Below, piece after piece: positions 3,577 through 34,998 of a stretch of DNA of 37,527 bases. Source of the stretch: a virus; the IMG/VR virus record IMGVR_UViG_3300042731_007586, positions 1-37,527 of that record; one strand, given 5' to 3'. The notes beneath the pieces are model-generated. The model worked only from the letters and a program-made list of their open reading frames with translations. It ran no database searches and was not told the origin of the DNA. A program made the position numbers and the translations under genes. Each line of letters opens with the position of its first letter. Position 1 is the stretch's first letter.

Positions 3577-6500
3577 ATGCCTCTAAAAATACCAACAGTT
3601 CAGGTAGGGCTTGAAAAGTCTATACAGAAAGCGGTTAAAAATGTAAGCGCTAGAGGTGGTTTGAATTTAAGCCTTGATGATAAAAACTTCACTAGACCTT
3701 TAGGTAAAATAACGGGCTCTGTAAGTGAATTCAATAAGTCGCTTGAAGCATCTAATGCTAGAGTATTAGCTTTTGGAGCTTCCGTGGGAATAATCCAAGG
3801 AGTTCAAAATGCATTTAAAGCACTTTTGCAAACTACAATTCAAGTAGAAAAGCAATTGACTGAAATTAATATCGTCATGGGTTTGACAAATTCCCAGCTA
3901 GACAATTTCTCTAAAGAATTATTTAAAGTAGCTAAAAATACGGCTCAATCATTCTCCACGGTAGCTACAGCAGCTACTGAGCTAGCCAGACAAGGTCTGA
4001 CAATGGAGGAAACTCTAAGAAGAACAAATGATGCCTTGATTCTAACTAGACTCACAGGTCTTGATGCAGCCAGTGCTGTAAGCGGTTTAACTGCAGCATT
4101 GAATACATTCAATAAAGCTGGATTAGATTCAACTAAAATTTTGAGTAAAATGGCTGCTGTGGATGTTCAGTTTGCAGTTAGTACAGAAGATTTGATAGAC
4201 GCTGTATCTAGAGCGGGCGCAGTAGCTCAAGATGCTGGAGTCAGCTTTGACCAACTCTTGGGTGCAGTTACAGCCGCACAACAACAAACCGCCAGGGGAG
4301 GTAAAGTTATAGGTAATAGTTTTAAGACTATTTTTACTCGCGTTCAAAGATCAAGCACTATCAATCGGCTAGAAGAATTAGGCATAGCCGTGAGGGACAT
4401 GGCTGGAAATACATTGCCAGCTATTACTGTTTTAGAAAACTTAGCAAAGACATATGAAAATTTAGCAGATACAACGAAAGCTGCGGTAGCCGAACAAGTT
4501 GGTGGAGTTTTTCAAATCAATATTTTAAAAGCTGCAATTAAGGATTTGTCAGAAGAAAATAGTATTTTAGCAAGAGCTACTCAAATATCCGCAAGTGCTA
4601 CTGACGAAGCTTACAAGAAAAATGAAATATTGAATAGATCTTTGTCCGCCTTAACTTCTCAGACTGCATCGAGCATAAAAGAGCTTGCGAATTTAATAGG
4701 TGATGTCGGTTTTTCTGACCAGATTAGAGATTACTTAACATTCATAAGAGATCAGCTTTCAAGCATAAATACATTTCTTGGTCAAAAAGAAGGAGAATCT
4801 GCTGGAGCCGACTTTGCTAATGGGTTGATAAAAGGAATTGGTAATGTAATAAGTGGACCTGGGTTAGTCTTGGCCGCTGGGGTATTAGTTAGGTTGTTCG
4901 CTACTACATCTAAATTCTTAATAGGTAGTGCTAAAGAACTTATGGGTGTTGTTAGTGCTTCTCAGAAACAGCAAAGAGTTCAAGAATCTATAGTAGCAAT
5001 ACTTGGAGAAAACAGCAATTTACAAAAAAGAATTTTATCTCAAGAAGGTAATAGGGCAGCTCAAGAAAAAACAATATTAACTTTACTTCAAGCTCAAGCA
5101 AGAGAACAACAAAGAATCGCAGCTGCAGCAAAAGCAGTAGGGCCAGCTATTTTAAGGTCTGGATTTAACACATCATTACAAAAAACCAGAAGTGGGGGAC
5201 ATGTACCAAATTACGCAAGCCCCGAAGAAAAGATTTTAGAAAAACAGGGAGCTATTGCAGGGGGGTATCAACCTGGAGCCGTGCGATCTTTAAATATAAA
5301 AGGCAGAGGGCGAGTAGTATACAATACAGCCGAAAAGGTCAAACAATTTGATGGCATGTCGGAACCCGCAATAATGCCTCCAAAAAATAGTAAAGCAGGA
5401 AAATCATTCAAGCAGAAATTTGAAAATATTCATGGCTTTAATCCTTATGCGAATAAAGGTATTATACCTAATTATTCAGCTTTTGATTACGACAAAAGCT
5501 TAATGAACACTCTTATTCTAAATAATTTTGGAAAAAATGGTAGAATTAAATATTTAGATGCGTTAAATTATATAGACGACAAGGGCTTAAAAGAATTATT
5601 AAATTCATTTGCCAAAAATATGGATCAAGATGTGGAATGGAAAGCATCGTGGCCAGGAATGTCAATAAATGATCTGTCCAAGAAATTTCCTCATTATGCG
5701 GCAGACGATCCATATGCTCCACCTGGAGATATTAATAGAGGATTATATAAAGGCCTTACAAATTCTAGAATAAAAGAAATATTACAGCAAGATGGAATTC
5801 AGCAAAGTTTTTATAAATACTTAAAAGGAAAAAGTAGCGGAATTGATATTGAGAATTTCTTAACTAAGGAAGAAAAAGATTTCTTTATGTCTGAATTTGG
5901 ATCCCTTCCTAGATTGAAACATGTAGATGATGGATCGTCCCCAGGAGGTAGAAAGGCTAATTTAAATGCATTTCAAGATGATTTCCTGACAACCAAAGCT
6001 CCCAAAGGAGAATCTCCATTAAAAAAGATTGAGAAAAAATTCAGGGCAACAATATCAAGTGAAATGCGGAGGTCGGATCTTCTTCAGCAAAATAAAGCAC
6101 TAAAACCTGAGGAAAAACAGATTTTGGGCCTACCTTTTGATCCAAATAGGAAACACATAGATCCAAGTGTTTATTATGCTAAGCCTGGGGATTATTCAAG
6201 GGCACAGCACATGATGCTAGAGAAGCAAATGGAGGAATCTCAAACAGGAGCCATGAAGGGAGCTGTAACTTCAAGCATAAGAACTAAGGGATTTAGCGTA
6301 ATAAATGCATTGGCGGATAAAAATTTGACAATGTCAAAAATGCAAAACATGAGGTTGATTGAAGAATTTGAATACTTAATGAATCCGCCTGATGTATCCA
6401 GAGTTGGGCAATCAGGTGCTATTATAAAAGGGCCAGCATTCGATCCGTATTCTTTTTCACAAGCTGAAGACAGAATTAGAGATAGGTTGAGAGTTCACCC

Positions 6501-9500
6501 AAGAATACAAAGATATTTCAAAGGATTAATGAAGAAAAGTATGGCAAGATGGGGCTTTTCTCAGGGAATGATACCTAACTACGGATTAAAAATTAATCCT
6601 GCAAATATTTCCAGGCTGGGAATGCCAAAGCCAAGCGAATTAAAAAGAAAAAATAATAAAAATATACCAAGACCTCAGCATGTTATAGGAATGACTGAGT
6701 TGGATCAAATTATTAGAAGTGGGTTATTTAAATCTATCAAATATCACCCATTAAAAGGAGGGCCAGTAATAGATGTTAATAATGCTAGGTATGGAGTTCA
6801 TAGCTTAAAAAAAGGAGCTTCTCCTCCAAAAGGTTTTAGTAGCTGGGACGACTTTGACCAAAACAATAAACTCGGCAGGACTAGAGTTGTTTATACACCA
6901 CCAAAAAGAGAAGGAGAAAGCCCTTTCAAGAGGCTTAGGTTGGATAGAATAGAAAGCGTCAATCATAGAGGGCAGATTTTTAAAGTAGATCCTAATATGG
7001 CTGCATCTGGATTAATTCCAAACTTCGCAAAATTCAGAGTAAAAACTCAACAGTTTGGTGGAGAAGATGGACCATTTGGGCCGCCAAGACAGGTTCAGTT
7101 TTCTTCATTTATAGGAGATAAAAAATTCGTAAAATCTCAAGCTACAGAAATTGATGATCCAAAGCAACCTGGCAAGACAGGATTGCAGGTTATATTTACT
7201 GGTGAATCTGATACATCATTAAGAGGAAAAGGTTACGGTCGTCAACTTTATGAATTCATGGCTCGTTATGCCAAAAAGAAAGGTTATACTGGTTTGTATG
7301 GAGATATGACTACATCAAAATCAGCTATGCGAGTAATTGATAGTATAGCTAAAAAAGGAAAATTTAAAATCGAGAAAAATAAAGATTTAAAATTCAGTAA
7401 GGATGAGCTTGAACCAGAAGGCAACTGGGGTAGCGACTCTTGGACTTATAGAATGTCAAATCAAGGTCATGTTCCTAATTATGCTGGATTATTTTCAAAA
7501 GGAGCAGAAAATATTTTAAGCAAAAACCTGCAATATGCTGGGGCAGTAAGTGATGCTATAAAAAGAGAGGCGTCATTTGGATTAACTCCAAAGGTCGTAG
7601 AAGCACCTTCTTTAAAAAGCTCAAAAAATCCTGGGCTAGCTGTTGTCAATAAAGAGCAAGAATCAGGAAGTTTACAAAAAGCTAAAATGCTTCACGGAGG
7701 ATTAAATCCAAATCAAAAAAGTGCTGCGGTTCCTAATTATGCATTAGACCTAAGCGATGTAATACAGGTAAGAAAAGGTGCTGACGATTTAATTGACGAA
7801 AGGGGGTTGAATTCAGTATCAAATTCATTCGAAAAATCAACTAAAATAATAAATCATTTTTCTACCGAATTAAAAGGGGCTCAAAAAATCTTAAAAACCT
7901 TAGGCAAAGGATATGCAGAGTCTTCTGAATTTATAAAAGAAGCAAACCTAAGAGAAAAAGCTAGGCTCGGAATTTTAGACAAAGAATCAAAAGAAAGAAA
8001 ACAATATGCTAGAGAATTCTTAAGAAAAGACGCTCTAGGTATGATTGCTCAAAGAGGAGGGGCTATAGGCGGACTAGCTACACAACTTCAACAATCTTCA
8101 AATTTTGAAAAAGATTTAAAATTTAGAATGGGAGTTGCAGAATTTGAAAATGACTTCGAAACCTTAAAGGGTTTGGAAAAGCTTGATCAGGCACTGGACG
8201 AAAGTGCCCAAGGAATGTTCAATAATCCAGAAACTAAAGCGTCTATTTTAAGAAATCAATTAAGAGAGGAATCTAGACAAGAGAGAGGGCTGAGAAGATT
8301 TCAAGGGCAAGAAGGGTTCTCAAAAAAAGAAATGAGGAAATTCTTTGCTCAAGAGTTTTTAGAGAACAAAGGGATTAACACAAAAGATATTAAAGAGGCT
8401 GAGTCTATAATGTCTAAAATGGACGCAAGAGGCAATAAAGAATTTAGAGATTTTGCTAAATCAAGAGGCGTGACTTCTTCAAATGCCGCACTAGCTAGAG
8501 GCGGATTAAAAACTGGAGATTTTAGAAATTTGATCGGAGCTAATGATGGGTCCAGCTTTATGACCCAACTAGCCAACTATCAAAAAATTTACGACGAAGG
8601 TGGAAAAGGGAAAATTGCAGCTAGAAGAAGGCTAATGAGAGAGGCCGCAAAGATAGCTAAGGATTCAGACTCAGCAGAGCAACTTCAATCCATGGTTCTG
8701 AACACTGAATCTAAACCTAAAAGCGAAAAGAAATCAGGATCCACAAGAACAGACAGGAGCAGAGTTGCGAGTGGTGGATTTTTAAAAGGAGTAGGGGGCT
8801 CTTTTACATCTGGAGTAAGAGGCTCTTCAGTTAGATCACAAGGATTTTTTGGTTCACTTGCAAACAGAACGGGGAGAGCTGTTGGAAATATAGGAACTGG
8901 AACAAGAAACTTTGCAACTAGAGGTTTTGGTGCTGCTGGCGGGCAAGTTGGGTTAGGTTTGTCGATAGCTGCACCTATGTTAGCGGGAATGGTTAGTAAT
9001 AGAACGGCAAGAGAAGATAGAGCCGTATTACAAAACGGACAGTTTAATGTTCAAGGAAGAGGTTCGGATATAGCATCAAGTACTCTAATGGGAGTAGGAA
9101 TGGGTGCTATTTTCGGGGCACCAGGAGCTGTGGTTGGTGGTGTTATAGGATTTATAAGTTCATTAAAAGAGGCTACTTTAACTATAGATGAGCAGATAAG
9201 AGTTAGAGAAAAAGAAATAGCATTAATTGGACAAAATATAAATGCTACCCAAAGTGTCCAAAATCTTTCCTCCGCGAGAGCTGAGGCTTTTGCGCAGGGA
9301 GATCAAAACAAAATAGCTGAGATAGACGTGGCTATGAACAGAGCTTTGGCTGGTGTTACCGATAAAGAAACTTTAAAAAGATTATCTGCAGCTGGATCTG
9401 ATAATGATGCTTTGGCTGAAATACAAAGAGACCTTCAAGATCAAATGACAAATGCTGTTAGTGTTCAAAACTTCGGGGTAGCATTAAAAAATTCTGACCA

Positions 9501-12500
9501 AGAAAAAGCCGCAAGAAATGCAGGGGTGGCTATGGGTTCTATGATAGCTCAATCCATAAGAAACGAAAATGTTGATGAGTCTTCCGCATTGGATGCTTTA
9601 AGAAGAATACAAACTAGTACTGCCGAAAAGGAGTCTAGAGGAATGATGGATACAGCCAGCTTGAATGCTTTAAGAAAAAAAGCAACAGGTGTTTTGGGGC
9701 AGCAAGATCTTTTAAGCACTGGAGGTGTATCAGGAGGAATAGCAGGAGGAATAGCTGGAGGATTAATGGCGACTGGAGGTGTGCTTAGTGCAACTGGGCT
9801 TGGATTACCAGTTGGACTTCTTATGGCGGCGGCTGGCGCTGGAATAGGTTTAGTAGGAGGAAGAATGACTGAAACTTATCTGGCTAAAGGTGATTTAGCA
9901 GAACAAACAGAAATGGGCTTAGATGAAATCAATGAATTAAATAAACTAGTCGAAGCTGGAGCTTTAACTGAAAATGCTATGAATCAGTTGGTAGCCGCTT
10001 TCAGAGAAGGGGAAATTAGCATGGGTGATATTGCTAAGGAAGCCGAAGATGCTGTTGTAGAATTTCAAAAAATTAAAAAGGCTTCAGATAGGGCTTCTGC
10101 GGCATTATTTAATATCGATCAAACATTCAAAAGAACAATACAAAAACTTTCAGTAAACTTAGAGGTTAATAAAATAAGACAAAATGCACAAAGTAGTGCT
10201 GAAAAATCTAATGCAAACTTTTCATCTCAGTTTCTTTCTCCTATAGATGCTAGTAAATTTTTAGCAAGAGAGCAGTCTAGAATATTATCTAACGAAGCTA
10301 ATTCTAGGATATCGAATTTTCAATCAGAGGGAGAAATTGCATTTTTAAGACAAGTTCAATCAAAATCTAAGCAATTAAATTTTGGTGGCCCACAGATGGA
10401 GTTCATAAGAAAAACTGTAGAAAATCAGGGAACCGCACCCATTGAATCTATGATAAGACGTAGAGAAATGAGCGGCACAATGACTATAAATTTATCAACA
10501 CAAAGACTTGATGATATATTTGAGGCGGTTGGAATCAAGGGAGGTGTTGATAACTTCAGTCAGGGCGATCAAATTAAAATGCCAGAAAATGTCAATGACA
10601 TGAAGGATCTTTTGGGAACTTCAAGAGCCGAAGAACAGTCCAGAATAATGCAAGAAATAATAAATAACTTGCCAAAGGTTAAAGCTGAGGGAACGATGGA
10701 CACTACTTTCACCAGGAATCTAGAAGAGCCTGATGCTCAAACATTATCTGAAATATTAGATGCTCAAAGAGAAAGATATAGAATAATTCAAGAAACAATA
10801 CTTGCTGAAAGAAAAAATCTGAGTATACAGATAGCTCAAAATACAATACAAACAAAAATACAGCAAGATTTAAGCAAGCTACAGCAACAAGCAAATAATA
10901 CTAGCTTATCTCAAGAAGGTAGCATGATGCAATTAAGAGGCCAAGCTTCTTCAGCTTTAAGTTTTAGCAATTTCAGATCGCAGTCTCCTTTATTTAGGGG
11001 AATGTCGTCGGACGAAGAAGAGAACAAAAGACAAGCAGGACTAAGAAAAAAGAACTTTGAAGAAGAGATGAAAGTGCGCAAAGCGGAAGCGCTAAACACC
11101 TTCAAAAAAGAAGCAACCAGACTGCTTGCAGAAAAAGAATTAATAAATGCCTTAAACAACTTAAAGCAAGCTATAGATGAGCAACTTGACATAGCTGAAA
11201 GCGAGGGGAATCAAGTATCTCAAGGAGAAAATAACCAATTAGTAGTAAAACCTATAGGACCAAATGAAACATCTGGAGCTGGTGCTGGAACTGGAGCCGC
11301 GTCTGGAAGAGGAATTTCTGTTATACCCACAATGGGAGGAAGTAAAGAACTAAACAAGAAAATAGAAGAAGAAAGTAAAGCTGTATCAATAGCACAACAA
11401 AACATCGAAACTAACGAAGGAAAAACAAAAAAACAAGAAGGGATCGTTTCTGATCTTGATACTAGAATCGAGCAATTAACAAAACTTAAAGGTAGATTGG
11501 AAAATATAAAAAACCTAGATGAAGGAGGATTTTTCTCGAATATAGGTTTGCAAAAAAGCGACCAAGAGGCAGAAAGAGATGCCATCTTTAGAGAGTTAAA
11601 AAAGAAAAGCCTTATAGATAATATGGGCGACATCACAAAGAAAGTTGTGATGAAGACTGGCATGGACGAAGGAGGGTCTTATCAATATGCGGAGCAACAG
11701 GATAAAACCGATGTAGAAATAGCTAATGAACTAGGAGATATAATAAATAAAGCTAAATCCAACAGAGAAAATGCTAATAGAAAAAAGGAAGAGGCTAAAG
11801 CTCAAGTCGAAAAGTTTAAAAAGGAAGTCGAAGATAGACGAAAAAATATCGCATTATTAAATGATACTTTCAAAGAAGATGTTATTGTTTTAAGCGATAA
11901 ATTAGCTGGAGAAAACATAAGTTTAGAAGATATAAATTTAAATGCTACTTCCAATCTTATTGATAGTGTTAATAGCTCAACAAGCTTGGAGCAGGGAGCT
12001 AAAGATTTGAACGAAAACTTAAAAGATCTAGCGGGGTCAGACGAAACTATAGCACTCAAATTAGGAGGATTGAATCAGGTTGTAAACAACCTAAATATTG
12101 GAATACAAGAATTTGAAAGGAACTTTAATGTTCAAGAGGCTTTAAGAGCGGTAGAAGAATTTAATCAAACTTTAAAATTTTCTACTTTTTCAACAGGCTC
12201 ATTTGACCAATTAAGAGATATTAGAAATCAAAATCAAAATATAGAAGCTGTTGCTGGAGCCAGTGTAATGAACAAGGTTGTTGACCAAGAGAGAAGACAG
12301 CAAAATTTTGATATAGTTAACCGAGATCCTACATCCACTTCCCTTGATAGAGCCAGAGCTAAAGCTGAATTAAATGCTTTCACTATAGGAACTAAACAAC
12401 AAAGAGATCAGATGGTTGGCATGAGAGACAGAATGAGGGATGAAAACCTTTTATTAACTCAAGCAGAGGAAGATAGAGCAAATGCATTGGCCAAAAAAGA

Positions 12501-13998
12501 TACTGCGGGCGTAGAGCAAGCCGACAAAGAAATAGAATCATTAAAAAATTCAATAAATCAGTTGGATAAAAGCATGCTTGAATTAGCTTCTCAAATGCAA
12601 AGAACTACTCCTAGAGACAATGGTTTTATTTCAGAATTCACTCAAAATACAGCAACAGGATTAGGCGTAGGTTTTGCCGAGATAGAATCTCAATCAGAGC
12701 AGATTTATACTAGATTGGGAATGCAACTTCCTTTATTATTCAGAGATGGATTGGTCGATGCTATGCAAGCAGCATTAGATGGAAGTAAAAGTTTAGAAGA
12801 TTCATTTAGACAGATAGGAATAACCCTACTTCAAAGTATACAGCAAGCATTTTTAACAAGCGCAGCAAATAGAATAACTGGAGCTATAGGTGGAATAATG
12901 GGATTCAACTCTGGAGGGTATGTGAATGGAGGAAGTGGAGCCAAAGATGATGTTCCTGCATTATTAATGGGAGGAGAATATGTAATCAAAAAGAGCGCTG
13001 TCCAAAAGTACGGAGTAAATTTTCTAGAAAATCTCAACAGGGGAGCCTTACAAGGTTATGCTGGAGGGGGGGCTGTTTTAAATATAGGCGGCCCAAAAGT
13101 AGCAGAAAGAGAAAAGTACACAGACGAAAACGAAGACGGAAATGTAACAAGGTATAGAGTAAAAAAAGCAGGTGTGGGTATTGACAGTCGGCTGTCTGCA
13201 TATGCAATAAATAATGACAGGTCGATACAAAAATATTTTAGAGATCAAGAGGAGCAATTCAACCAAGACCTCATGACCAAAAGGCAATTAAAGGCCAGAG
13301 AGAAAAATAAAAAATACCGAGAAGAGATGGAAAAAAATGCATTGCAAAATATGCTAATATCTGCAGTCGGTAGTGCGGTTATAGGAAAAGCTATATCATG
13401 GGGAACTGAAAAATTCAAACAAACTGATTTTTATAAAAACAGGCAAGCAAAAAAAATACAAAAGCAATTTAATAAGCAAGGCTACGCAGATGTAAAAGGG
13501 CAAAATATTGTTAATAAATATCCAAACCCCAGAGATAGAAGAATAATACAAGCACAATTAAAACAAACATATGCCGACAAGGGAGCTTTTGAAACTGCAA
13601 AACTGATGCAATTTTATGATCTTGGAGGTCAGGTAGACAGCGAAGGTTTTGATCTTTTCCAAAGAAACAACAAAGGTGGACCAGTTGTTCCGTCCATGTT
13701 AACTGGAGGAGAGTATGTAATGAGTGCAAGTGCAGTTAAAACTTATGGCTCTTCTTTAATGCAAGGATTGAATAGCGGAACAGTCGCAACAGGAACTGGA
13801 GCACAAGCTCAATCAGGGCAATCAGGGCAAGTAAGTAATGTTTCGCATGGAGATGTGAATATAAATATTAATGTTGATAGTTCTGGAGCTGCATCTGGAG
13901 ACGCTGATTTAAATACCCCCGAATTCGCTCAAAAAGTAAAAAGTGCAGTAATGAATGTTCTATCTCAAGAAAAAAGAGTGGGAGGTACTCTAAGATAA
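3577..13998 (+). CDS. Giant tape measure protein with modular cargo-like insert
   Basis: A 3,473-residue protein that should set tail length, fill the tail lumen and be ejected with the DNA. Residues about 50-400 form a TP901-type tape measure core (LARQGLTMEET, TGLDAASAVSGLTAALN, SFKTIFTR). Residues about 539-1389 are an insert punctuated by six P-N-[YF] motifs and containing a GNAT domain. A helical region follows to about 1750. Glycine-rich hydrophobic segments lie at about 1789-1806, 1829-1862 and 2049-2103 and could insert in membrane. A long Gln/Glu/Lys coiled-coil rod then runs to about 3090. The C-terminus has two copies of the GGEYV motif typical of tape measures (near 3139 and 3379). 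It ends with a beta strand and a helix (DVNINVDSS, then QKVKSAVMNVL). Lambda gpH has about 850 residues, so this is roughly fourfold longer. The family call is firm; the insert's function is open. Confidence 0.93.
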   Translation: MPLKIPTVQVGLEKSIQKAVKNVSARGGLNLSLDDKNFTRPLGKITGSVSEFNKSLEASNARVLAFGASVGIIQGVQNAFKALLQTTIQVEKQLTEINIVMGLTNSQLDNFSKELFKVAKNTAQSFSTVATAATELARQGLTMEETLRRTNDALILTRLTGLDAASAVSGLTAALNTFNKAGLDSTKILSKMAAVDVQFAVSTEDLIDAVSRAGAVAQDAGVSFDQLLGAVTAAQQQTARGGKVIGNSFKTIFTRVQRSSTINRLEELGIAVRDMAGNTLPAITVLENLAKTYENLADTTKAAVAEQVGGVFQINILKAAIKDLSEENSILARATQISASATDEAYKKNEILNRSLSALTSQTASSIKELANLIGDVGFSDQIRDYLTFIRDQLSSINTFLGQKEGESAGADFANGLIKGIGNVISGPGLVLAAGVLVRLFATTSKFLIGSAKELMGVVSASQKQQRVQESIVAILGENSNLQKRILSQEGNRAAQEKTILTLLQAQAREQQRIAAAAKAVGPAILRSGFNTSLQKTRSGGHVPNYASPEEKILEKQGAIAGGYQPGAVRSLNIKGRGRVVYNTAEKVKQFDGMSEPAIMPPKNSKAGKSFKQKFENIHGFNPYANKGIIPNYSAFDYDKSLMNTLILNNFGKNGRIKYLDALNYIDDKGLKELLNSFAKNMDQDVEWKASWPGMSINDLSKKFPHYAADDPYAPPGDINRGLYKGLTNSRIKEILQQDGIQQSFYKYLKGKSSGIDIENFLTKEEKDFFMSEFGSLPRLKHVDDGSSPGGRKANLNAFQDDFLTTKAPKGESPLKKIEKKFRATISSEMRRSDLLQQNKALKPEEKQILGLPFDPNRKHIDPSVYYAKPGDYSRAQHMMLEKQMEESQTGAMKGAVTSSIRTKGFSVINALADKNLTMSKMQNMRLIEEFEYLMNPPDVSRVGQSGAIIKGPAFDPYSFSQAEDRIRDRLRVHPRIQRYFKGLMKKSMARWGFSQGMIPNYGLKINPANISRLGMPKPSELKRKNNKNIPRPQHVIGMTELDQIIRSGLFKSIKYHPLKGGPVIDVNNARYGVHSLKKGASPPKGFSSWDDFDQNNKLGRTRVVYTPPKREGESPFKRLRLDRIESVNHRGQIFKVDPNMAASGLIPNFAKFRVKTQQFGGEDGPFGPPRQVQFSSFIGDKKFVKSQATEIDDPKQPGKTGLQVIFTGESDTSLRGKGYGRQLYEFMARYAKKKGYTGLYGDMTTSKSAMRVIDSIAKKGKFKIEKNKDLKFSKDELEPEGNWGSDSWTYRMSNQGHVPNYAGLFSKGAENILSKNLQYAGAVSDAIKREASFGLTPKVVEAPSLKSSKNPGLAVVNKEQESGSLQKAKMLHGGLNPNQKSAAVPNYALDLSDVIQVRKGADDLIDERGLNSVSNSFEKSTKIINHFSTELKGAQKILKTLGKGYAESSEFIKEANLREKARLGILDKESKERKQYAREFLRKDALGMIAQRGGAIGGLATQLQQSSNFEKDLKFRMGVAEFENDFETLKGLEKLDQALDESAQGMFNNPETKASILRNQLREESRQERGLRRFQGQEGFSKKEMRKFFAQEFLENKGINTKDIKEAESIMSKMDARGNKEFRDFAKSRGVTSSNAALARGGLKTGDFRNLIGANDGSSFMTQLANYQKIYDEGGKGKIAARRRLMREAAKIAKDSDSAEQLQSMVLNTESKPKSEKKSGSTRTDRSRVASGGFLKGVGGSFTSGVRGSSVRSQGFFGSLANRTGRAVGNIGTGTRNFATRGFGAAGGQVGLGLSIAAPMLAGMVSNRTAREDRAVLQNGQFNVQGRGSDIASSTLMGVGMGAIFGAPGAVVGGVIGFISSLKEATLTIDEQIRVREKEIALIGQNINATQSVQNLSSARAEAFAQGDQNKIAEIDVAMNRALAGVTDKETLKRLSAAGSDNDALAEIQRDLQDQMTNAVSVQNFGVALKNSDQEKAARNAGVAMGSMIAQSIRNENVDESSALDALRRIQTSTAEKESRGMMDTASLNALRKKATGVLGQQDLLSTGGVSGGIAGGIAGGLMATGGVLSATGLGLPVGLLMAAAGAGIGLVGGRMTETYLAKGDLAEQTEMGLDEINELNKLVEAGALTENAMNQLVAAFREGEISMGDIAKEAEDAVVEFQKIKKASDRASAALFNIDQTFKRTIQKLSVNLEVNKIRQNAQSSAEKSNANFSSQFLSPIDASKFLAREQSRILSNEANSRISNFQSEGEIAFLRQVQSKSKQLNFGGPQMEFIRKTVENQGTAPIESMIRRREMSGTMTINLSTQRLDDIFEAVGIKGGVDNFSQGDQIKMPENVNDMKDLLGTSRAEEQSRIMQEIINNLPKVKAEGTMDTTFTRNLEEPDAQTLSEILDAQRERYRIIQETILAERKNLSIQIAQNTIQTKIQQDLSKLQQQANNTSLSQEGSMMQLRGQASSALSFSNFRSQSPLFRGMSSDEEENKRQAGLRKKNFEEEMKVRKAEALNTFKKEATRLLAEKELINALNNLKQAIDEQLDIAESEGNQVSQGENNQLVVKPIGPNETSGAGAGTGAASGRGISVIPTMGGSKELNKKIEEESKAVSIAQQNIETNEGKTKKQEGIVSDLDTRIEQLTKLKGRLENIKNLDEGGFFSNIGLQKSDQEAERDAIFRELKKKSLIDNMGDITKKVVMKTGMDEGGSYQYAEQQDKTDVEIANELGDIINKAKSNRENANRKKEEAKAQVEKFKKEVEDRRKNIALLNDTFKEDVIVLSDKLAGENISLEDINLNATSNLIDSVNSSTSLEQGAKDLNENLKDLAGSDETIALKLGGLNQVVNNLNIGIQEFERNFNVQEALRAVEEFNQTLKFSTFSTGSFDQLRDIRNQNQNIEAVAGASVMNKVVDQERRQQNFDIVNRDPTSTSLDRARAKAELNAFTIGTKQQRDQMVGMRDRMRDENLLLTQAEEDRANALAKKDTAGVEQADKEIESLKNSINQLDKSMLELASQMQRTTPRDNGFISEFTQNTATGLGVGFAEIESQSEQIYTRLGMQLPLLFRDGLVDAMQAALDGSKSLEDSFRQIGITLLQSIQQAFLTSAANRITGAIGGIMGFNSGGYVNGGSGAKDDVPALLMGGEYVIKKSAVQKYGVNFLENLNRGALQGYAGGGAVLNIGGPKVAEREKYTDENEDGNVTRYRVKKAGVGIDSRLSAYAINNDRSIQKYFRDQEEQFNQDLMTKRQLKAREKNKKYREEMEKNALQNMLISAVGSAVIGKAISWGTEKFKQTDFYKNRQAKKIQKQFNKQGYADVKGQNIVNKYPNPRDRRIIQAQLKQTYADKGAFETAKLMQFYDLGGQVDSEGFDLFQRNNKGGPVVPSMLTGGEYVMSASAVKTYGSSLMQGLNSGTVATGTGAQAQSGQSGQVSNVSHGDVNININVDSSGAASGDADLNTPEFAQKVKSAVMNVLSQEKRVGGTLR
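5191..7743 (+). repeat. Six dispersed G-h-[VI]-P-N-[YF] motifs inside the tape measure
   Basis: Within the tape measure frame the motifs are GGHVPNYA (P544), KGIIPNYS (P631), QGMIPNYG (P1000), SGLIPNFA (P1148), QGHVPNYA (P1300) and SAAVPNYA (P1386). They divide about 850 residues into five modules of roughly 80, 360, 140, 145 and 80 residues. The first and last modules resemble each other, and the fourth is a GNAT fold. The motifs could be flexible linkers, docking strands or protease sites. Similar PNFA-type punctuation exists in other large phage proteins as far as I recall, but I could not check this. Confidence 0.7.
7030..7467 (+). other. GNAT-type acetyltransferase domain embedded in the tape measure
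   Basis: Residues about 1152-1297 lie exactly between the fourth and fifth P-N-[YF]-A motifs. A beta strand (GLQVIFTGE) leads into RGKGYGRQLYEF at R1216-F1227. This fits the acetyl-CoA pyrophosphate-binding motif A, [QR]-x-x-G-x-[GA], with R1216, G1219 and G1221. It is followed by the amphipathic helix ARYAKKKG, a strand, and a motif-B-like stretch (SAMRVIDSIAKKGKF). The length suits a single GNAT domain. The substrate is unknown, and no antitoxin-like partner lies beside it. Confidence 0.75.
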
Positions 13999-14830: not shown

Positions 14831-15588
14831 AATATATCAGACATCAAGAGTGCGAAATAGAAATAAACGAAGAAAAGTTCTTCGCTAAGTCGGCTAATTT
14901 GTCTTCGTCTTCAAATTTAGATTCTAATAGAACTTACGGCGGAGAATTGAGGCCATATCTAGCCACATCTCCAGTTTCAGCAACTGTTGGTTTTGATTAC
15001 TATTTAACTGGAAAAAATGATTCTATTGCTTTTTTAACGGGCAACATTCCATGCTCTGGTAGATTTTGCGGTATTGAATTTTCGGGAGCATATTTAACAA
15101 ATTATGCGATAGAAATAAGGCCATACAAACCAGTATCTTTTTCTGCATCATTTGATATATATAGCGGATTCAGCCAAGAAACAAAAACTGGATCTTTCAA
15201 GTCAGATCCAATAAAAGTAGCCAACGGAGCTTATACAGAACTAAATAACTTCAATAAAAATAATATTGGTATGGATTTTCCTCAAGAAATATCTTATTCT
15301 GTGCAATGCGAAAGGGTGCCTAATTATGTTATAGGGCAAGAGCATCCTATGGATGTAAGATTGGGGCAAATAAACAAGGAGATATCAATAAAAGGAGAAA
15401 ACATTGGTTCGGTTATTAATTATTCTGGAAGAGATTTTGCTAAAATAACAATTTCTCCAAAAAATATAGACTATGCTGCAAGGGGTCAAGAATTGACTTG
15501 TGAAGGAATGATTCAAAGTCAAAATCTAGATATAAGTTCAAATGGATTATTGAATGGATCGGTAAGTATAATTGAAAATGTTCGATGA
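14827..15588 (+). CDS. Tail-tube-like distal tail protein (paralog 3)
   Basis: A 253-residue beta-rich protein translationally coupled to its upstream neighbour by an ATGA overlap. It repeats the tube-like layout. The N-terminal half has KSANLSSSSNLDSN, a Gly-Gly, then SATVGFDYYLTGKND, which matches the tube protein's SANYSFTINRTD and NLDFTYYPTDG. The C-terminal half has EISYSVQCERVPNY, VIGQEHPMDVRLG and FAKITISPKN, matching the paralog just upstream. It probably forms a second ring between the tube and the gpM/gpL-like proteins. No enzyme motif or membrane segment is present. A minor tail protein of another fold remains possible because overall identity is low. Confidence 0.55.
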   Translation: MKYIRHQECEIEINEEKFFAKSANLSSSSNLDSNRTYGGELRPYLATSPVSATVGFDYYLTGKNDSIAFLTGNIPCSGRFCGIEFSGAYLTNYAIEIRPYKPVSFSASFDIYSGFSQETKTGSFKSDPIKVANGAYTELNNFNKNNIGMDFPQEISYSVQCERVPNYVIGQEHPMDVRLGQINKEISIKGENIGSVINYSGRDFAKITISPKNIDYAARGQELTCEGMIQSQNLDISSNGLLNGSVSIIENVR

Positions 15589-16559
15589 GTGATACTATCA
15601 ACAAATTAAACTTCTGGAATTTAAATAAAGATTATTATCTTGAAGCTGATAATTCTGGAGCCGATTTTTATAACTCTTATTCTGATTTCACCAAAAAATC
15701 AAAAACGGATATAAATTTAAAAAAATTTAAATACAATAACCCTTTCAAATTCATTCCTTCTTACGGCTCATCAATGTCTATAGCTTTTTTAAATAACATA
15801 GATAACTTTGGAGATTTTTACCTAATGCTAGAAGAGGATGGATTTAATAGAATAGCTCTAAGTCTATCTCTAAGATTTGAAAGCAGAGGGAATAAAGAAG
15901 CTAAAGATATTTTAAACTATATAGATAACAAGACCAAAGGAAGGGAAAATTATTTTCCTATTCAATACAACGATTCAGAAAATTTAACTAGTGAAAATCT
16001 GTATAAATCTTTATATTCATTAAAACCTTATGTAGTTCAAGAATTTAAATGTGAAGATTCTAATTCAATATCAACATATTTAGATAATAATTCTATTAGT
16101 TTAACATTGAATAATGATTTAATGTCTCGTTTTACTTCAAGAAATATAATATATGCTGAATCTTTACCAGAAAAAGAAAAACAATTAATAAAAAGCTACT
16201 GGAGGAAAGACAAATTAGATATTCAGCCAATTTATCCACTCAATAAGGGCGAGTCTTTTAACGAAGAAAGTATCAGGCTTGGATCTTCTAAGCCTTACAA
16301 GGTTTTAAATAAAATTAATCCTAAGTTTTATTCTTTTGAAATGGAATTTAAATCTATAGATGATGAAACTTTACTTAAGCTTTTGTCTTTTTTTATATCA
16401 AAAAACGGCATGGAAACATTTGAGTTCGACCTAAGGGAGCCAGAAGCAAAAACTATAAATCTAATGTGCTCAAAATTACAGCACGACTTTCTCTATATGA
16501 ACTCCCACACACTAAAGGCAACTGTAGCAGAAGTGCCAGTTCCTTTTAAGTATTATTAA
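15585..16559 (+). CDS. gpM-like minor tail protein, probable tandem domain
   Basis: A 324-residue protein, three times the length of lambda gpM. Its C-terminal part (about residues 235-320) follows the gpM pattern: a strand (YSFEMEFKSIDDE), a helix (TLLKLLSFFIS), an aromatic strand (METFEFDLREPE), a strand containing a Cys (INLMCSKL) and a final strand (HTLKATVAEVP). Residues about 95-190 seem to repeat this order (IALSLSLRFES, DILNYIDNKTKG, YVVQEFKCED, SISLTLNND), so it may be a tandem duplication. In lambda, gpM acts in tail-tip assembly just above gpL and gpJ. The gene overlaps its upstream neighbour by ATGA and is followed by a 35-base gap, the largest break in the tip operon. Confidence 0.65.
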   Translation: MSDTINKLNFWNLNKDYYLEADNSGADFYNSYSDFTKKSKTDINLKKFKYNNPFKFIPSYGSSMSIAFLNNIDNFGDFYLMLEEDGFNRIALSLSLRFESRGNKEAKDILNYIDNKTKGRENYFPIQYNDSENLTSENLYKSLYSLKPYVVQEFKCEDSNSISTYLDNNSISLTLNNDLMSRFTSRNIIYAESLPEKEKQLIKSYWRKDKLDIQPIYPLNKGESFNEESIRLGSSKPYKVLNKINPKFYSFEMEFKSIDDETLLKLLSFFISKNGMETFEFDLREPEAKTINLMCSKLQHDFLYMNSHTLKATVAEVPVPFKYY

Positions 16560-16594: not shown

Positions 16595-17500
16595 ATGGCA
16601 TTTTTAAAAAAAGAATCTGTTAATGAAGAGCTTTTTAATCATAGTAAAAGTGCTCAAGTCGAATTGTTAGAAATATCAGAAATACCAAATTCAGGAGATG
16701 TAATAAGGTTTCACGGAGGAGCTAATTCTATATACGAATCAATTTTTTTTGGGGGAAAGGAATATTATTATATACCATATGAAGGTACTGATTTTGGTAG
16801 TAGATCTGACGGGAGGATATCAAGGCCTACTATAAAAATTATAAACTTTAATGGTTTTCTTTCTAAATTTATGATCGGAAAAGATGATTTAATTAGATCA
16901 AGAGTAACTAGAGTTAGAACATTTTTTAGATTCTTAGATGAAGAGAACTTTTTAAATTATGAATCAGACAAAGAGTTTTGGTCAGAAATGGGAATAAATC
17001 CAGATCCAAATGCGACTCTGAGGCCAGATGTATGGTATATAAATCAAAAAATAGAAGAAAATAAATTTTATGTAGAATTTGAAATGTCTAATGCTTTAGA
17101 TTTAGAGGGAGCTGTTTTACCTAGAAGGCAAATATTAAATAATTACTGCACGTGGAAATATAGAGGAAAAGGATGCAAGTATAGTGGGGGAGTGGTAGCT
17201 GACTCGAACAATGTAAAGTTTGACAAAAATGGATTAAGGGATAAAGGGGAGTGGAACGATGATACAGACTACATATTGGGAGATGTAGTATATGTTTGGA
17301 CCAGAGAAGGAGAAGGTAGGAGAGCTATAGTTTATGTTTGTACAAACCCTCATAAATCCACTCAAAATTTAAGACCTTCTGTAAACAATAAAGATTGGGC
17401 TATGGATGCATGCTCTAAAACCCTTAAAGGATGCAGGTTAAGGTTTGGGGAAGATTCGGACCTTCCTTTTGGCGGATTCCCTTCAAGTAGACTATATTAA
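16595..17500 (+). CDS. gpL-like tail-tip protein with iron-sulfur cysteines and an inserted domain
   Basis: A 301-residue relative of lambda gpL. The N-terminal domain carries the family pattern: AQVELLEI, IRFHGGAN, then YIPYEGTDFGSRSDGR, SRPTIKIIN, and RVTRVRTFFRFLD. The C-terminal domain has four cysteines, C185, C194, C273 and C280, spaced C-x8-C and C-x6-C. As I recall, this equals the ligand spacing in lambda gpL, whose cysteines bind an iron-sulfur cluster. The ending RLRFG and PFGGFPSSRLY is typical of the family. Between the cysteine pairs is an insertion of about 55 residues, described separately. No Shine-Dalgarno sequence precedes the ATG; TATAAT lies at 16582-16587, eight bases upstream, so transcription from it would give a nearly leaderless message. 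The stop overlaps the next start (TAATG). Confidence 0.85.
   Translation: MAFLKKESVNEELFNHSKSAQVELLEISEIPNSGDVIRFHGGANSIYESIFFGGKEYYYIPYEGTDFGSRSDGRISRPTIKIINFNGFLSKFMIGKDDLIRSRVTRVRTFFRFLDEENFLNYESDKEFWSEMGINPDPNATLRPDVWYINQKIEENKFYVEFEMSNALDLEGAVLPRRQILNNYCTWKYRGKGCKYSGGVVADSNNVKFDKNGLRDKGEWNDDTDYILGDVVYVWTREGEGRRAIVYVCTNPHKSTQNLRPSVNNKDWAMDACSKTLKGCRLRFGEDSDLPFGGFPSSRLY
17240..17404 (+). other. Carbohydrate-binding-like (CBM5/12 type) insertion in the gpL-like protein
   Basis: Residues about 216-270 read EWNDDTDYILGDVVYVW, then a strand with VYVCTNPHK and a closing NNKDWAMD. A leading Trp (W220), a Y-x-x-G-D core (Y226, G229, D230), a mid Tyr/Cys strand and a closing Trp (W268) are the hallmarks of chitin-binding type 3 (CBM5/12) domains. 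It sits between the two iron-sulfur cysteine pairs, where lambda gpL has only a short loop. A glycan-binding role at the tail tip is inferred. Confidence 0.55.
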
Positions 17501-17871
17501 TGATAGAAGTATTAGATAGAATAAAAAAAATTTCAGAAAATCAACCAGAGCAAGAAGTTTGTGGATTTTTACTTAAAAATAAAAAGATTTTCGAGGCTGA
17601 GAATGTAGCCATATCAAAAGACGATTCTTTTGAAATAAAAACTAGCGATTATATCAAATGCGGAGGCAGAAAAAAAATTTACGCCATTTACCACTCTCAT
17701 CCATTTTGTTCTGAAGAATTTTCAAAAGAGGATGTTGGCATAAGTGACGCATTGATGATTCCGATTATTGTATACAGTATTATCAAAAGTAAATTTAATA
17801 TTTATATACCAAAATCTGTAAAAAGAAATAAAACAATAGATTCAATAGAAAAAAGTGTAGTTACTTATTAA
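17500..17871 (+). CDS. gpK-like tail-tip protein, JAMM/MPN peptidase domain only
   Basis: A 123-residue protein with a complete JAB1/MPN zinc metallopeptidase signature: E19 in EVCGFLL, then H65-S-H67, seven residues, S75-x-x-D78. This matches the canonical H-x-H-x7-S-x2-D with an upstream glutamate. Lambda gpK pairs such a domain with a C-terminal NlpC/P60 peptidoglycan hydrolase. Here the protein ends right after the JAMM domain, and I see no NlpC Cys-His pair in it or in its neighbours. It probably acts in tail-tip assembly or maturation. It starts on the last base of the gpL-like stop (TAATG), which implies termination-reinitiation, and is followed by a good ribosome-binding site for the next gene. 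Confidence 0.85.
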   Translation: MIEVLDRIKKISENQPEQEVCGFLLKNKKIFEAENVAISKDDSFEIKTSDYIKCGGRKKIYAIYHSHPFCSEEFSKEDVGISDALMIPIIVYSIIKSKFNIYIPKSVKRNKTIDSIEKSVVTY

Positions 17872-17883: not shown

Positions 17884-18600
17884 ATGAAGATATTTTTACA
17901 TGGAGAATTGGGTAAGAAATTTGGAGAAGAATGGAAGTTAAGTGTAAAGTCTCCAAATGAAGCATTTAGAGCTATAGATGCAAACAAAGATGGCTTTTTT
18001 AAGCATTTGTGCGAAAGAGATAAACATGGAGTATCTTACAGAATATTCATAGATAAAAAGGGAGTAAGAAACACAAAAGAACTAGCTATAGAATCTGAAA
18101 AAATAGAAGAGATGCATGTTCTTCCAGTAATAAAAGGAAGGGATAGAAGAAGGCGTAGAAGAAAAAACTACCAAATGTCAGCTTGGGGATTTGGGGCAAT
18201 GGGTCTTGGATATGGACTATCCTATTTAGGAGGTTTAATTGGAGGTTTTTGGGGAGGTCTATTAGGATTTATAGGAAATATAGGTATGGAAATAGGTGGA
18301 GCAATGATAATGGAAGGGGCAATAGGGCTGCTATCTAAAGAACCACCCAAGCCACCAGCAGAGGATACTGCGCCTCAGCAAAAAAGCACAACTTCATTTA
18401 CTTTTGCAAGACCTTTGAATACTGTGGTGCAAGGAGCTCCTATACCAGTTGGTTATGGAAGATTAAGGGTTGGAAGTCAGGTTGTTTCATCTTCGTTGAT
18501 GAACTCTAGAATGGTGGCATTTAATCAATCTAGATCGTCAACAAGTGAAGATGGTGGCAATTTACATGCTGCTGTTAATGTGGATCATTATACTCTTTAA
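17884..18600 (+). CDS. gpI-like tail assembly protein
   Basis: A 238-residue relative of lambda gpI. Residues 1-85 form a small beta-grasp-like domain (KIFLHGELGKKFG near the start, MHVLPVIKG at its end). A very basic linker follows (GRDRRRRRRKN). Residues about 100-150 are a Gly-rich hydrophobic stretch (GLGYGLSYLGGLIGG, then GLLGFIGNIGMEIGG), which could span or perturb a membrane. The family's most conserved block comes near the end: FARPLNTVVQGAPIPVGYG followed by RLRVGSQVVSS. In lambda, gpI is needed to assemble the gpJ-based tip but is not clearly retained in the virion. It is preceded by the strong ribosome-binding stretch AAGGATAAAGG and ends two bases before the gpJ-like gene. Confidence 0.88.
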   Translation: MKIFLHGELGKKFGEEWKLSVKSPNEAFRAIDANKDGFFKHLCERDKHGVSYRIFIDKKGVRNTKELAIESEKIEEMHVLPVIKGRDRRRRRRKNYQMSAWGFGAMGLGYGLSYLGGLIGGFWGGLLGFIGNIGMEIGGAMIMEGAIGLLSKEPPKPPAEDTAPQQKSTTSFTFARPLNTVVQGAPIPVGYGRLRVGSQVVSSSLMNSRMVAFNQSRSSTSEDGGNLHAAVNVDHYTL

Positions 18601-27419: not shown

Positions 27420-30400
27420 GTGCCATTTGATCAGATCTATTGGAATAATTATGGCCAGGGTGATGTGGCCGAATCTGGGTATTTTGACAAAAGTGAATCC
27501 CTTGATGTAAGGTTTGGAGTAACAGCTACGGCAGATAGCCACTCAACCTTTTCTTTTTTTGGAAAAAGAAGGAAATTTTATTCAACTTTTTATGACTTAA
27601 CATACAGGGATACTAAATTCCCTTTTAATGCAAATAATATGGGCGCATATGGAAGGGGAGGTTTCTGGAAAACTTCACCAACAAGTGCAGAGCCTGATCC
27701 AGCTTTACCACAAAGCACTGGAAATGAAGACGGAAATTGCGACAAATCGAAAGGTTGGACGGATAGTGGATACGATGCAGGAAATGGGCAGATCTGTAAG
27801 CCTTTAAGGGAATATCAAGTACAAGTTCAATCCACTGTTTGTTATAGTTGGCCAGGTATAGAAGAACAAACATACTCTAGTTTCAATGTGAATGATATGA
27901 AAAAAACTGGCAATAATGGAAACAATATTGTTGCTGTTTATGGAGATAGCCCAACAGACGATGATTTATTCCAAGCACAAAATAGAGAAAGCTGCCACAA
28001 CATATCAAATACAGCAAGAGTAATAGATGCAGATCATCCGTTTATTGGAATACATGCAGATTATCCACTAACGGTTACCACAAAAAAAGCAATGCAAGGC
28101 TATTATGTAATCCTGAAAAGGAAAAGGTTTGTTTACAATGAATACGCAAGCAAACACACCGAACAGTATGGTAGCTATGGAAGCGCGCAGTTTCAAAAAG
28201 GAGGAAACATAAAACCATGCCATGTAGATACTAGGCAGGGTCATTATTTACATTACGACGAGGCTGGAGATCTAGTTGATTATCCGAAGCAATCAACGGA
28301 TCAAGAGGAGATGTGTGACCATATTGTAAGGGTAAGAACTTCTGCTTTAGGACAACCCTTTTCTACCACAAGAGATTATGTAGATGTTTATCCTGGCTGG
28401 GGTGGATATAATTTTAGGGCCGCTGGCGGTTTATCAGGAAGAACCGAAGCCGAAGACTTAAAAGGTTTATTTCGAAGTAGAGTTCCATATAAAGGTTGGT
28501 TTGTTCTTCCTTGGGATAATTTAGATACAGCTGTAAATACTTGGTATAGTGAATGGAACGAGCTAATAGTAGCTAAATTGTTGGCCCAATCAATATTACA
28601 AGGACAAATAGACATAGTAACTCCTTTACAACAGGCGTTTAACGATGCAAATACAGCCGCTAATGATGCTTATGCTGTATACAGCAATTTATATGACGAG
28701 GCTGAAGATTTAAAGGAGACATATGACAATAAAGTTACAGCAGCGAACACGGCAACCACAAATTATAATACTCAAGTTGCAATAGCTGAGTCGGCAGGAG
28801 CAACCGCTGAAGAAGAAACTACAAAACTGAATACTCTTAATACTCAATTTAATAGCAAGAATGCTGAGTACGAAACGGCTGTTAGTGATTATAATGATGC
28901 AGTCACAGCTCAATCTGATGCAGTTGATGCATATAATGCTGCATATACTACATTAGAAGGATGGTATAATTATTGTTGGGCGTGGGCGGGAGATAATCAT
29001 CCATTAAATACTAATATTCAAGCTTCTGAGGTAGATTGGGACAGTTTCGATTTATTGTGTGGGGAAACCGATTCAGGGAATCAATATTGGGGCGATGGCT
29101 ATTTTGCTTCTTATAATGCTGCATGGAATGCTTGGGTAGCTGCTGATCAGACTCTAAATCAAGCAAATGCAGCTGAAGATACTGCGCTAGCGACTAGAAA
29201 TACCTTGCAGGCCGAAGTTGAAGATCTTGACTCCCAAGTCAGTGCTCAAACTACAATTCAAGAGGCTGCCGTTGCAGCCTCGACAGCTGCAGATGCAGAA
29301 GCTACAAGGCTTCAGGGTATAATGGATGACAAAAAAGATGAAGCGGCCTCTGCTAAAACAGCATATGACAACAAAGTTATAGAAGTCAATGCCGCATGGG
29401 ACGTATATGAACCTCTTGACACAGAAAGAGATAATGCACAAACCACATTAAGCACCGCTCAAGCTCTTCAGATTTTAGCTCAAGATGTTTATGATGATGC
29501 AGCTCTGGCCGAAAGTGCTTACCCAGATAATGCAGGTAATGCTTTGAAAGATAGAATCCAGAACCCAGTATATTACGCTGATGATAGACTGAACTGGAGA
29601 ATGCCTAAATGGGATGAAGATGACGGAGGAATAGATATGGATAGAGCTGATCCAGATGGAGAAAATCACGACGGAAGTGTCAATTTGATTGACGCTGTAA
29701 TATCTCCAGAATTTGTGCCAAGGGAAAGGGCAGAAACAGGATCGGTTTATATAAAAAGCATAACAGTCAAAAAAAATGGAACTGGAGTATTGCAACCAGG
29801 ATATGATGCAGTTGGGCGGTACATAGAATTACCTAGCAATGAAATATATACTGACCAATCTAGTAAGATAAATGCTTCAGGAAGCTCAGGGCAAAAAATA
29901 GTTACATTTAAAAATATGTTTAGGAATGGATCTTCTTATTTAACTAGATATATATCTAATGAGTTCTTGATATCTTTTTCAGGGTCTACAAAAAAATATT
30001 CAATAGATAGTGTGTCGGGAAATAAAATCACATTGACTGAAAATTTATCTACCAGTTTAAACAACTCGACTTTCACTCTTCATATACCAAGAGGAGCTAG
30101 AGAAAAAGAAGAGTATACTTGGGGTAATTATGATCTTAGTGAATTCGATTCTGATACTTATGAAACATTAGTTGATTTAAATCAAAAACATCAATGGCCA
30201 GACGAGGATGGGAATGCAATAGATATGCCTGAAGAACTAATAGAAGATGATATGATATCAAGAGATCATGCTGGCTATGTATCTGACGAACTGCAATATC
30301 AACATGCTTTGCATGTTATAAACGATAGCACTACATGGTTGATTCGGGATTTATTCTTAGCAACATCCGCAAACACTAATGATAATACTTTAAACCTTAT

Positions 30401-31496
30401 TTATGCAGCAGATGGATTAGGAATGGGAGAGGGGCACTTGGGTAAGGCGGTTAGGCATCCGTATTTTGCAAACGAACTAGGGGAAAGTTTGAACATAAGA
30501 AACGACTTTTTTAATTGGGCATATCATGAGTATTTATATTTCTCTGCTCCTGCTGGTCAAGGTGGGCATTGTTCCTGTAAGGTTGGGGGGAATGTAACTT
30601 GGAATAAATATAGATGGATAAAATGGTGGGAAATGCCAAGAACTAATGCAATATTAGAAGATGATGCCGCAGTTCATTATAATAATAGTGGATTCTCTAA
30701 TTTAAGACAATCTGTATTTGATGGTTTTGTTAGCTATACTGATTTGTATGGAATTCAAATAGATACCAAAGCAAAACAATTTTTTTACGGAGGTGTTGAT
30801 AAGGCTTCGTCTGCAATTTGGCCATGTTATGAAAATAATATACCTCAAACAAGCCCAGAAGCATTTGATCAAAAATTCTCCACTCATTACCCTAGTTGGG
30901 GGGTAGAGTTTGAAGAAGCTTACACTAACTACAATCATTCCCTTAGGGGGGTCGATTTGGGAGCGGATGCAAACAATACTCCAACCATACAAAGAGTTCT
31001 AGATAGACCCTGGTTTACTTATTGCGCATTCAGTCAATGCCCAGGTCTAAAAACTAACATGTATGATTTTCAAGGAAACTCAAACCAAAGGTTGATGCAA
31101 CAATTTGCAATGAGCCATAGAGACTATACCGAGACCAGCCATAGTCAAAGAGCCATACCCTGGAAGGCTTTACAAAAATCAAAATATGAAAAAATATTAA
31201 AAAGGCCTTCTGTCTTAGCTCAATATGGATTTGCTGGAGATATGTTTGGTTATACTACGGCTGATGTTGGCTTCGCAAACAATACATGGGCCGACCATAA
31301 TATAACTGTATACGAGAGTAATAACTATTTACCCCAAGGATCTCATTTTGAAATATCTTTACATCAGGCAGGGACAGAATTTAATGATGATATAAGAGAC
31401 GAGTGGGAAAGAAGAATACCAGAAGAAAATTTAATAGGAGATGGAAGATCAAAAATATCTCTAGATAATTATACAGCTTATATAGTTGCTAAGTAG
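27420..31496 (+). CDS. Large tail-tip/fibre-associated protein with a helical hairpin
   Basis: A 1,358-residue protein starting with GTG, nine bases after GGAGGT, which decides the start. I do not recognise the family. Residues 1-385 are a Cys- and aromatic-containing globular part. Residues about 385-510 are an Ala/Asp/Thr/Asn-rich coiled-coil arm (FNDANTAANDAYAVY). Residues about 511-567 form a compact Trp/Tyr-rich tip with C519 and C547. Residues about 568-700 are a second arm of similar length. Then come an acidic loop (DPDGENHDGSVNLID near 740), a beta segment at about 770-900, and a C-terminal globular part with a Cys cluster (HCSCKVGG). No signal peptide is seen. Its position after the receptor-binding gene suggests a virion tip or side-fibre protein. 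It ends four bases from a convergent minus-strand gene, with no terminator visible. Confidence 0.6.
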   Translation: MPFDQIYWNNYGQGDVAESGYFDKSESLDVRFGVTATADSHSTFSFFGKRRKFYSTFYDLTYRDTKFPFNANNMGAYGRGGFWKTSPTSAEPDPALPQSTGNEDGNCDKSKGWTDSGYDAGNGQICKPLREYQVQVQSTVCYSWPGIEEQTYSSFNVNDMKKTGNNGNNIVAVYGDSPTDDDLFQAQNRESCHNISNTARVIDADHPFIGIHADYPLTVTTKKAMQGYYVILKRKRFVYNEYASKHTEQYGSYGSAQFQKGGNIKPCHVDTRQGHYLHYDEAGDLVDYPKQSTDQEEMCDHIVRVRTSALGQPFSTTRDYVDVYPGWGGYNFRAAGGLSGRTEAEDLKGLFRSRVPYKGWFVLPWDNLDTAVNTWYSEWNELIVAKLLAQSILQGQIDIVTPLQQAFNDANTAANDAYAVYSNLYDEAEDLKETYDNKVTAANTATTNYNTQVAIAESAGATAEEETTKLNTLNTQFNSKNAEYETAVSDYNDAVTAQSDAVDAYNAAYTTLEGWYNYCWAWAGDNHPLNTNIQASEVDWDSFDLLCGETDSGNQYWGDGYFASYNAAWNAWVAADQTLNQANAAEDTALATRNTLQAEVEDLDSQVSAQTTIQEAAVAASTAADAEATRLQGIMDDKKDEAASAKTAYDNKVIEVNAAWDVYEPLDTERDNAQTTLSTAQALQILAQDVYDDAALAESAYPDNAGNALKDRIQNPVYYADDRLNWRMPKWDEDDGGIDMDRADPDGENHDGSVNLIDAVISPEFVPRERAETGSVYIKSITVKKNGTGVLQPGYDAVGRYIELPSNEIYTDQSSKINASGSSGQKIVTFKNMFRNGSSYLTRYISNEFLISFSGSTKKYSIDSVSGNKITLTENLSTSLNNSTFTLHIPRGAREKEEYTWGNYDLSEFDSDTYETLVDLNQKHQWPDEDGNAIDMPEELIEDDMISRDHAGYVSDELQYQHALHVINDSTTWLIRDLFLATSANTNDNTLNLIYAADGLGMGEGHLGKAVRHPYFANELGESLNIRNDFFNWAYHEYLYFSAPAGQGGHCSCKVGGNVTWNKYRWIKWWEMPRTNAILEDDAAVHYNNSGFSNLRQSVFDGFVSYTDLYGIQIDTKAKQFFYGGVDKASSAIWPCYENNIPQTSPEAFDQKFSTHYPSWGVEFEEAYTNYNHSLRGVDLGADANNTPTIQRVLDRPWFTYCAFSQCPGLKTNMYDFQGNSNQRLMQQFAMSHRDYTETSHSQRAIPWKALQKSKYEKILKRPSVLAQYGFAGDMFGYTTADVGFANNTWADHNITVYESNNYLPQGSHFEISLHQAGTEFNDDIRDEWERRIPEENLIGDGRSKISLDNYTAYIVAK

Positions 31497-31500
31497 CAAA

Positions 31501-32604: not shown

Positions 32605-32606
32605 TA

Positions 32607-34958: not shown

Positions 34959-34960
34959 CA

Positions 34961-34976
34961 AATATATTATACACTA
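34961..34976 (-). promoter_or_regulatory. Candidate promoter for the minus-strand operon
   Basis: On the minus strand the sequence TAGTGTATAATATATT lies two bases before the ATG at 34958. It combines the recurring AGTGTA word with a perfect TATAAT (34971 down to 34966). The last T is eight bases from the start codon, so a transcript from it would have almost no leader, and no Shine-Dalgarno sequence is present. The divergent arrangement requires some promoter between 34958 and 35016. Confidence 0.4.
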
Positions 34977-34998
34977 GATTGATTAAAAAACCATTTTA

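Follow-up and report, generated by a model that had tools for sequence, protein, structure and literature searches.

In a viral contig of 37,527 nucleotides (IMG/VR record IMGVR_UViG_3300042731_007586, positions 1 to 37,527, hereafter the window), a homolog of the lambda tail hub protein gpL carries an additional stretch of sequence between two cysteine pairs. What is this stretch, and what might it do for the phage? The sequence-only reading had proposed a sugar-binding domain of the CBM5/12 type, placed beside a metal cluster at the very tip of the tail. We evaluated this proposal through profile searches, structure prediction, structural alignment, and a survey of related environmental sequences.

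A gpL homolog with widely separated cysteine pairs

The 301-aa ORF matches PF05100 (Phage_tail_L) with E 3.5e-46 and 157.6 bits, against a curated cut-off of 25, and phrog_18 (minor tail protein) with E 1.4e-66. Its solved relatives, found with phmmer, include the F2-pyocin BHP (E 3e-26) and lambda gpL (8iyk_L, E 1e-22). The gene order is lambda-like, running from a protein in the gpM position through gpL, a JAB protein, and a gpI-like protein to a gpJ-like protein (Table 1); the gpM-position protein scores 32.5 bits against PF05939, under the cut-off of 39. A 3473-aa ORF at window 3577-13998 would be the tape measure protein by position alone, and an unusually long one. Four ORFs 3' of the gpJ-like gene (1358, 367, 784, and 381 aa; 27420-36161) had no PHROG match at E 0.01.

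Table 1. Features of the gpL locus, in window positions
Feature	Positions	Strand	Basis
Minor tail protein, gpM position	15585..16559	+	PF05939 E 1.2e-7; phrog_14 E 2.2e-6
gpL homolog (minor tail protein / hub protein L), 301 aa	16595..17500	+	PF05100, phrog_18, lambda gpL
HDI-type domain, residues ~1-170	16595..17104	+	structural alignment with hub proteins
First cysteine pair, C185-x8-C194	17147..17176	+	kept in gpL alignment; C173/C182 of lambda
CBM5/12-like inserted domain, residues 208-270	17216..17404	+	alignment, AlphaFold2, CBM5/12 structures, profile matches
L259, at the exposed chitin-binding Trp position of CBM5/12	17369..17371	+	gap-free 1ed7 alignment
Second cysteine pair, C273-x6-C280	17411..17434	+	kept in gpL alignment; C205/C212 of lambda
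gpK-like JAB-domain protein	17500..17871	+	PF14464 Prok-JAB E 8.1e-7; phrog_30 minor tail protein E 9e-12
gpI-like tail assembly protein	17884..18600	+	phrog_32 tail assembly protein E 4.9e-36
gpJ-like central tail protein, 2879 aa	18603..27242	+	PF13550 Phage-tail_3 E 1.2e-17; position

The protein was modelled with AlphaFold2 as a monomer on a 38-row alignment, giving a mean pLDDT of 81 and a pTM of 0.55, with residues 170-181 poorly modelled. In structural alignment (VIA-align), residues 10-173 of the model align with the hub proteins of lambda, T1, RcGTA, R4C, JBD30, and T5, and lambda gpL matches this N-terminal part with Z 16.2. Lambda gpL (PF05100, 8iyk chain L) shares with the window protein the HDI domain, the C-x8-C/C-x6-C module, and the gene neighbourhood. 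It differs in the distance between the cysteine pairs, which is 22 residues in lambda (Cys173, 182, 205, and 212; PMC10721106) and 78 in the window, where the added residues form an extra predicted domain. Both the spacing within each pair and the enlarged gap between pairs had been noted from the sequence, and both are borne out: an alignment with gpL of seven cultured phages places the insertion between the usual cysteine pairs, which stand 21-22 residues apart in ordinary gpL without an insert. The four cysteine ligands are present, and the window protein may form a 4Fe-4S cluster. There is a fifth cysteine, C249, inside the insert; we rejected it as an additional ligand, as it aligns with the Cys of the YKC motif in ChiA1 and 5 of 29 aligned rows have Ala or Ser in its place.

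Predicted fold and putative binding face of the insert

Residues 211-270 were modelled with a pLDDT of 90-95, with strands predicted at 215-219, 230-238, 241-249, and 268-270. When compared with known structures (VIA-align), residues 217-272 align with the CBM5/12 modules of Vibrio chitin deacetylases (Z 7.2-8.2, 24-28% identity, rmsd 0.7-2.0 A over 46-51 residues, the best rows reaching 0.7-1.0 A over 46-48), and the insert aligns with the chitin-binding domain of chitinase A1, 1ed7 (Z 5.8, rmsd 1.5 over 44 residues, 30% identity). The predicted insert therefore has the small three-stranded CBM5/12 fold, confidently folded rather than unstructured, as the sequence-only reading had anticipated.

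Profile searches point the same way for the family, with a mixed outcome for the window itself. The CBM5/12 profile, a search with which had been suggested as a check, is Pfam CBM_5_12 (PF02839); it matches 14 of 22 sampled related inserts (best E 2.3e-5), but it matches neither the whole window gpL nor the window insert alone, which matches no Pfam family at all. No other Pfam family matches more than one of the 22. A profile of 29 inserts searched against the PDB ranks CBM5/12-bearing chitin deacetylases first (E 1.6e-4). A leave-out profile of relatives, from which the window and its three nearest rows were excluded, scores the window insert core at 60.6 bits, compared with 11.3 bits for the best of 2000 shuffles, which rules out a chance motif; the same profile finds no second copy of the insert in the window. 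One structural match in BFVD, from an uncultured Caudovirales phage, is named 'ChiA1_BD domain containing protein', so automatic annotation has already touched this module. We therefore class the window protein as gpL bearing a CBM5/12-like domain and stop short of calling it a proven member of CBM5/12.

The W...Y-x-x-G-D...W pattern had been read as the signature of a chitin-binding domain. W220, G229, D230, and W268 do stand at the residue numbers given for them, within an insert placed at residues 216-270, and they are consistent with the fold; they are scaffold positions, not sugar contacts. Across 29 aligned inserts, W220 is conserved in 27, D230 in 28, and both Y226 and W268 in all. In CBM5 the conserved Tyr and Trp are hydrophobic core residues (PMC8449059), and Y226 and W268 fit these roles. 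For ChiA1, W687 has been put forward as the chitin-binding residue, together with H681, T682, P689, and P693 (PMC2265269). The gap-free alignment with 1ed7 pairs PHKSTQNLRPS in the window with PHTSLAGWEPS in ChiA1, so that H253 and P261 match H681 and P689, while L259 stands at W687 and K254 at T682. The W687 position is aromatic in a single one of the 29 inserts. Chitinase A1 and the Vibrio CBM5/12 modules share with the insert the predicted fold, the W220/Y226/W268 pattern, and the gap-free PHxSxxxxxPS at the binding loop, yet they are attached to enzymes, whereas the insert sits in a phage hub and is without the exposed binding Trp. Because this Trp is missing, the window insert is unlikely to bind chitin in the canonical manner.

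Inserts at the same site in related hubs

Searching viral_contigs with the full-length gpL as a single query brought up no relatives; a query made from its C-terminal part did. The closest, L016 (JAQXAG010000048.1), is a 61.5-kb contig with 82% gpL identity and the same insert, and two IMG/VR contigs (57 and 163 kb) encode close gpL homologs with 77% identity, again with the same insert. We rejected an assembly artefact as its source, since distinct homologs carry it. The bin that holds the L016 contig is a Candidatus Neomarinimicrobiota MAG, which hints weakly at the host. Among the matches listed, no cultured phage was seen with a CBM5/12-like gpL insert.

A gapped DNA pattern on both cysteine pairs fetched 107 loci, in which the pairs are separated by 21-22 residues in ordinary gpL, by 77-81 in the window's type (about 20 other loci, some of them near-copies), and by up to 496 in others. 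To sample gpL with no selection for inserts, a pattern on the first pair alone was used, yielding 110 distinct gpL with both pairs; these are the first matches of a motif scan, a non-random sample in which some rows are near-copies. Among the 110 environmental gpL listed, 70 have no insert, 7 have short extensions, and 33 have long inserts. The long inserts comprise 23 CBM5/12-like, 4 bulb lectin, and 6 other domains, the weakest CBM calls being tentative because part of these inserts went into training the classification profile, which also covers the flanking WxxDxC. L214, classed as 'other', resembles a CBM by eye.

Across the family, long inserts range from 68 to 573 residues. Bulb-lectin inserts match PF01453 (B_lectin) in 7 of 7 members, find mannose-type lectins in the PDB (profile E 1e-28), and carry QxDxNxVxY-type motifs. 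In a third class (L069, L071, L183, L191, L208, L151, L192, and L040), a beta-rich stretch is flanked by two long helices, and the L069 model points to a stalk of paired helices carrying a beta-rich head. Structural matches of this stalked insert are mainly to helical stalks, many of them flagellar, and we did not take them as kinship. In L076, L108, and L233, 450-573 residues lie between the cysteine pairs, with CBM5/12-like resemblance in the final stretch only; L076 and L108 also have a weak PF09356 (Phage_BR0599) match near the C-terminus.

On a tree built on the HDI domain and first cysteine pair, the window falls within an all-CBM group of 27 rows (support 99/98). A second CBM group of 7 rows lies among rows without inserts (99/99), and the bulb lectins form one group (99/84). 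The CBM label needs three changes on this tree, of which well-supported branches force only one; repeated independent gain is possible, not forced, and we do not claim it.

The site is already known to accept a domain in distant hub relatives, going by RcGTA, R4C, and JBD30. In the RcGTA hub g13, residues 168-249 form a domain named oligosaccharide-binding that lies between two iron-binding segments (PMC7296036), and the R4C hub has a domain named oligosaccharide-binding between its cluster-binding segments (PMC10276861). By alignment and published domain limits, these occupy the same topological site as the window insert. The two hubs are distant from gpL in sequence, and their inserted domain has been compared to the insertion domain of LKA1 gp49 and to the T4 hub, whereas the window insert matched CBM5/12; 6tba_7A and 8gtc_P aligned to the window model over the HDI part only (VIA-align). 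In JBD30, Cys147/156/238/245 of the upper baseplate protein gp50 are described as a putative metal site, in passages that give no sugar role (PMC11445458); compared by cysteine spacing, gp50 shares x8 and x6 with the window protein, and its pairs stand 81 residues apart. Another parallel is found in the evolved Dit and Tal proteins of siphophages (PMC7291167), where a core tail-tip protein carries CBMs in its loops that serve as accessory modules for adhesion, although there the scaffold protein and CBM folds are other ones, hosts are mostly Gram-positive, and some binding was experimentally shown. We found no report of CBM5/12 or bulb-lectin inserts in lambda-type gpL in the open-access literature.

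Possible roles of the insert at the tail tip

The reading we lean towards, with moderate confidence, is that the insert provides an accessory, low-affinity glycan contact on the gpL hub that aids tail-tip positioning. The gene encodes the hub protein of a lambda-type tail, with the predicted domain at the place of lambda's 22-residue loop; going by the lambda structure, the hub would display three copies of it on its outer flank. Each could make low-affinity contact with host surface glycans, helping to hold or orient the tip while the gpJ fibre seeks the main receptor. The gpL identity with its lambda-like gene order, the fold, the lectin-type domains that relatives carry at this site, the long inserts in 33 of the 110 gpL listed, and the domains named oligosaccharide-binding in the RcGTA and R4C hubs all favour this reading, and the absent chitin-contact aromatic and the lack of a PF02839 match for the window insert count against it. 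What the analysis shows is the gene identity, the insertion site, the predicted fold, its recurrence, and the other lectin-type domains at the site; that the cluster forms, that the domain (modelled in a monomer) is exposed in the assembled tip, that it binds a glycan, and that binding helps adsorption is what we infer. The placement at the 'very tip' did not hold, because the gpJ fibre extends beyond the hub. According to a 2026 study, the gpL C-terminal region is a focus of hypervariability, presumably near the cell wall (PMC13243795).

The loss of the exposed aromatic with retention of scaffold residues would also fit a structural spacer, a CBM5/12-derived fold that has lost sugar binding and packs against gpJ insertions or accessory parts, shaping or stabilising the tip. 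The near-uniform length of the window's insert type across its clade (77-81 residues) would suit this role, and when the lambda tip opens, the 4Fe-4S module and HDII-ins1 move together as one rigid body (PMC11101478). Against this, relatives carry unrelated lectin folds at the site, among them bulb lectins whose sugar motifs look intact, and the length range of long inserts is ill-suited to one fixed contact; we consider a spacer rather unlikely. The same lost sugar face leaves the ligand open, and a host surface protein or other non-glycan ligand could be bound instead, but nothing points to a protein ligand and the other inserts at the site are lectin-type, making this very unlikely. Canonical binding of chitin or another GlcNAc polymer, tethering the phage to chitin particles or chitin-dwelling hosts, seems slightly less credible still: the nearest structures are chitin-binding modules and two ChiA1 face residues are retained, but the W687 and T682 replacements, with the Trp position non-aromatic in 28 of 29 inserts, speak against it.

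Relatives hold different lectin-like domains at the same spot, which makes it look like a socket for swappable host-sticking modules, and the site is probably a modular adhesion socket in gpL. More tentatively, and on balance short of what we would expect to hold, the loop between the iron-sulfur ligands could be a general cassette socket of lambda-type tails, which about a third of environmental gpL of this sequence type would use to display lectin-type modules on the hub flank, exchangeable for one another and including CBM5/12-like domains, bulb lectins, and perhaps a stalked beta-domain, and with the cluster as a clamp that lets foreign domains in without disturbing the hub. The gpL cluster is widely conserved and its function unexplained (PMC10721106); acting as a clamp at the base of a variable display loop, if it does so, would give it a structural role that can be tested. 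If true, gpL would also join Dit and Tal as siphophage scaffolds that display sugar-binding modules, and its insert would be a place to look for glycan specificity in uncultured phage genomes.

Additions were also observed elsewhere in gpL. A CBM5/12-like module (AWxxSTAYSVGDIVRA...) is fused at the N-terminus in L040, L048, L113, L120, and L147, with Pfam CBM_5_12 matches of E 0.003 in L048 and 0.03 in L040; L048, L113, and L120 also have long extra sequence C-terminal to the second cysteine pair. Finally, a lambda-like gpL at L121:9014-9880 carries the four-cysteine module twice in tandem, by duplication or assembly error.
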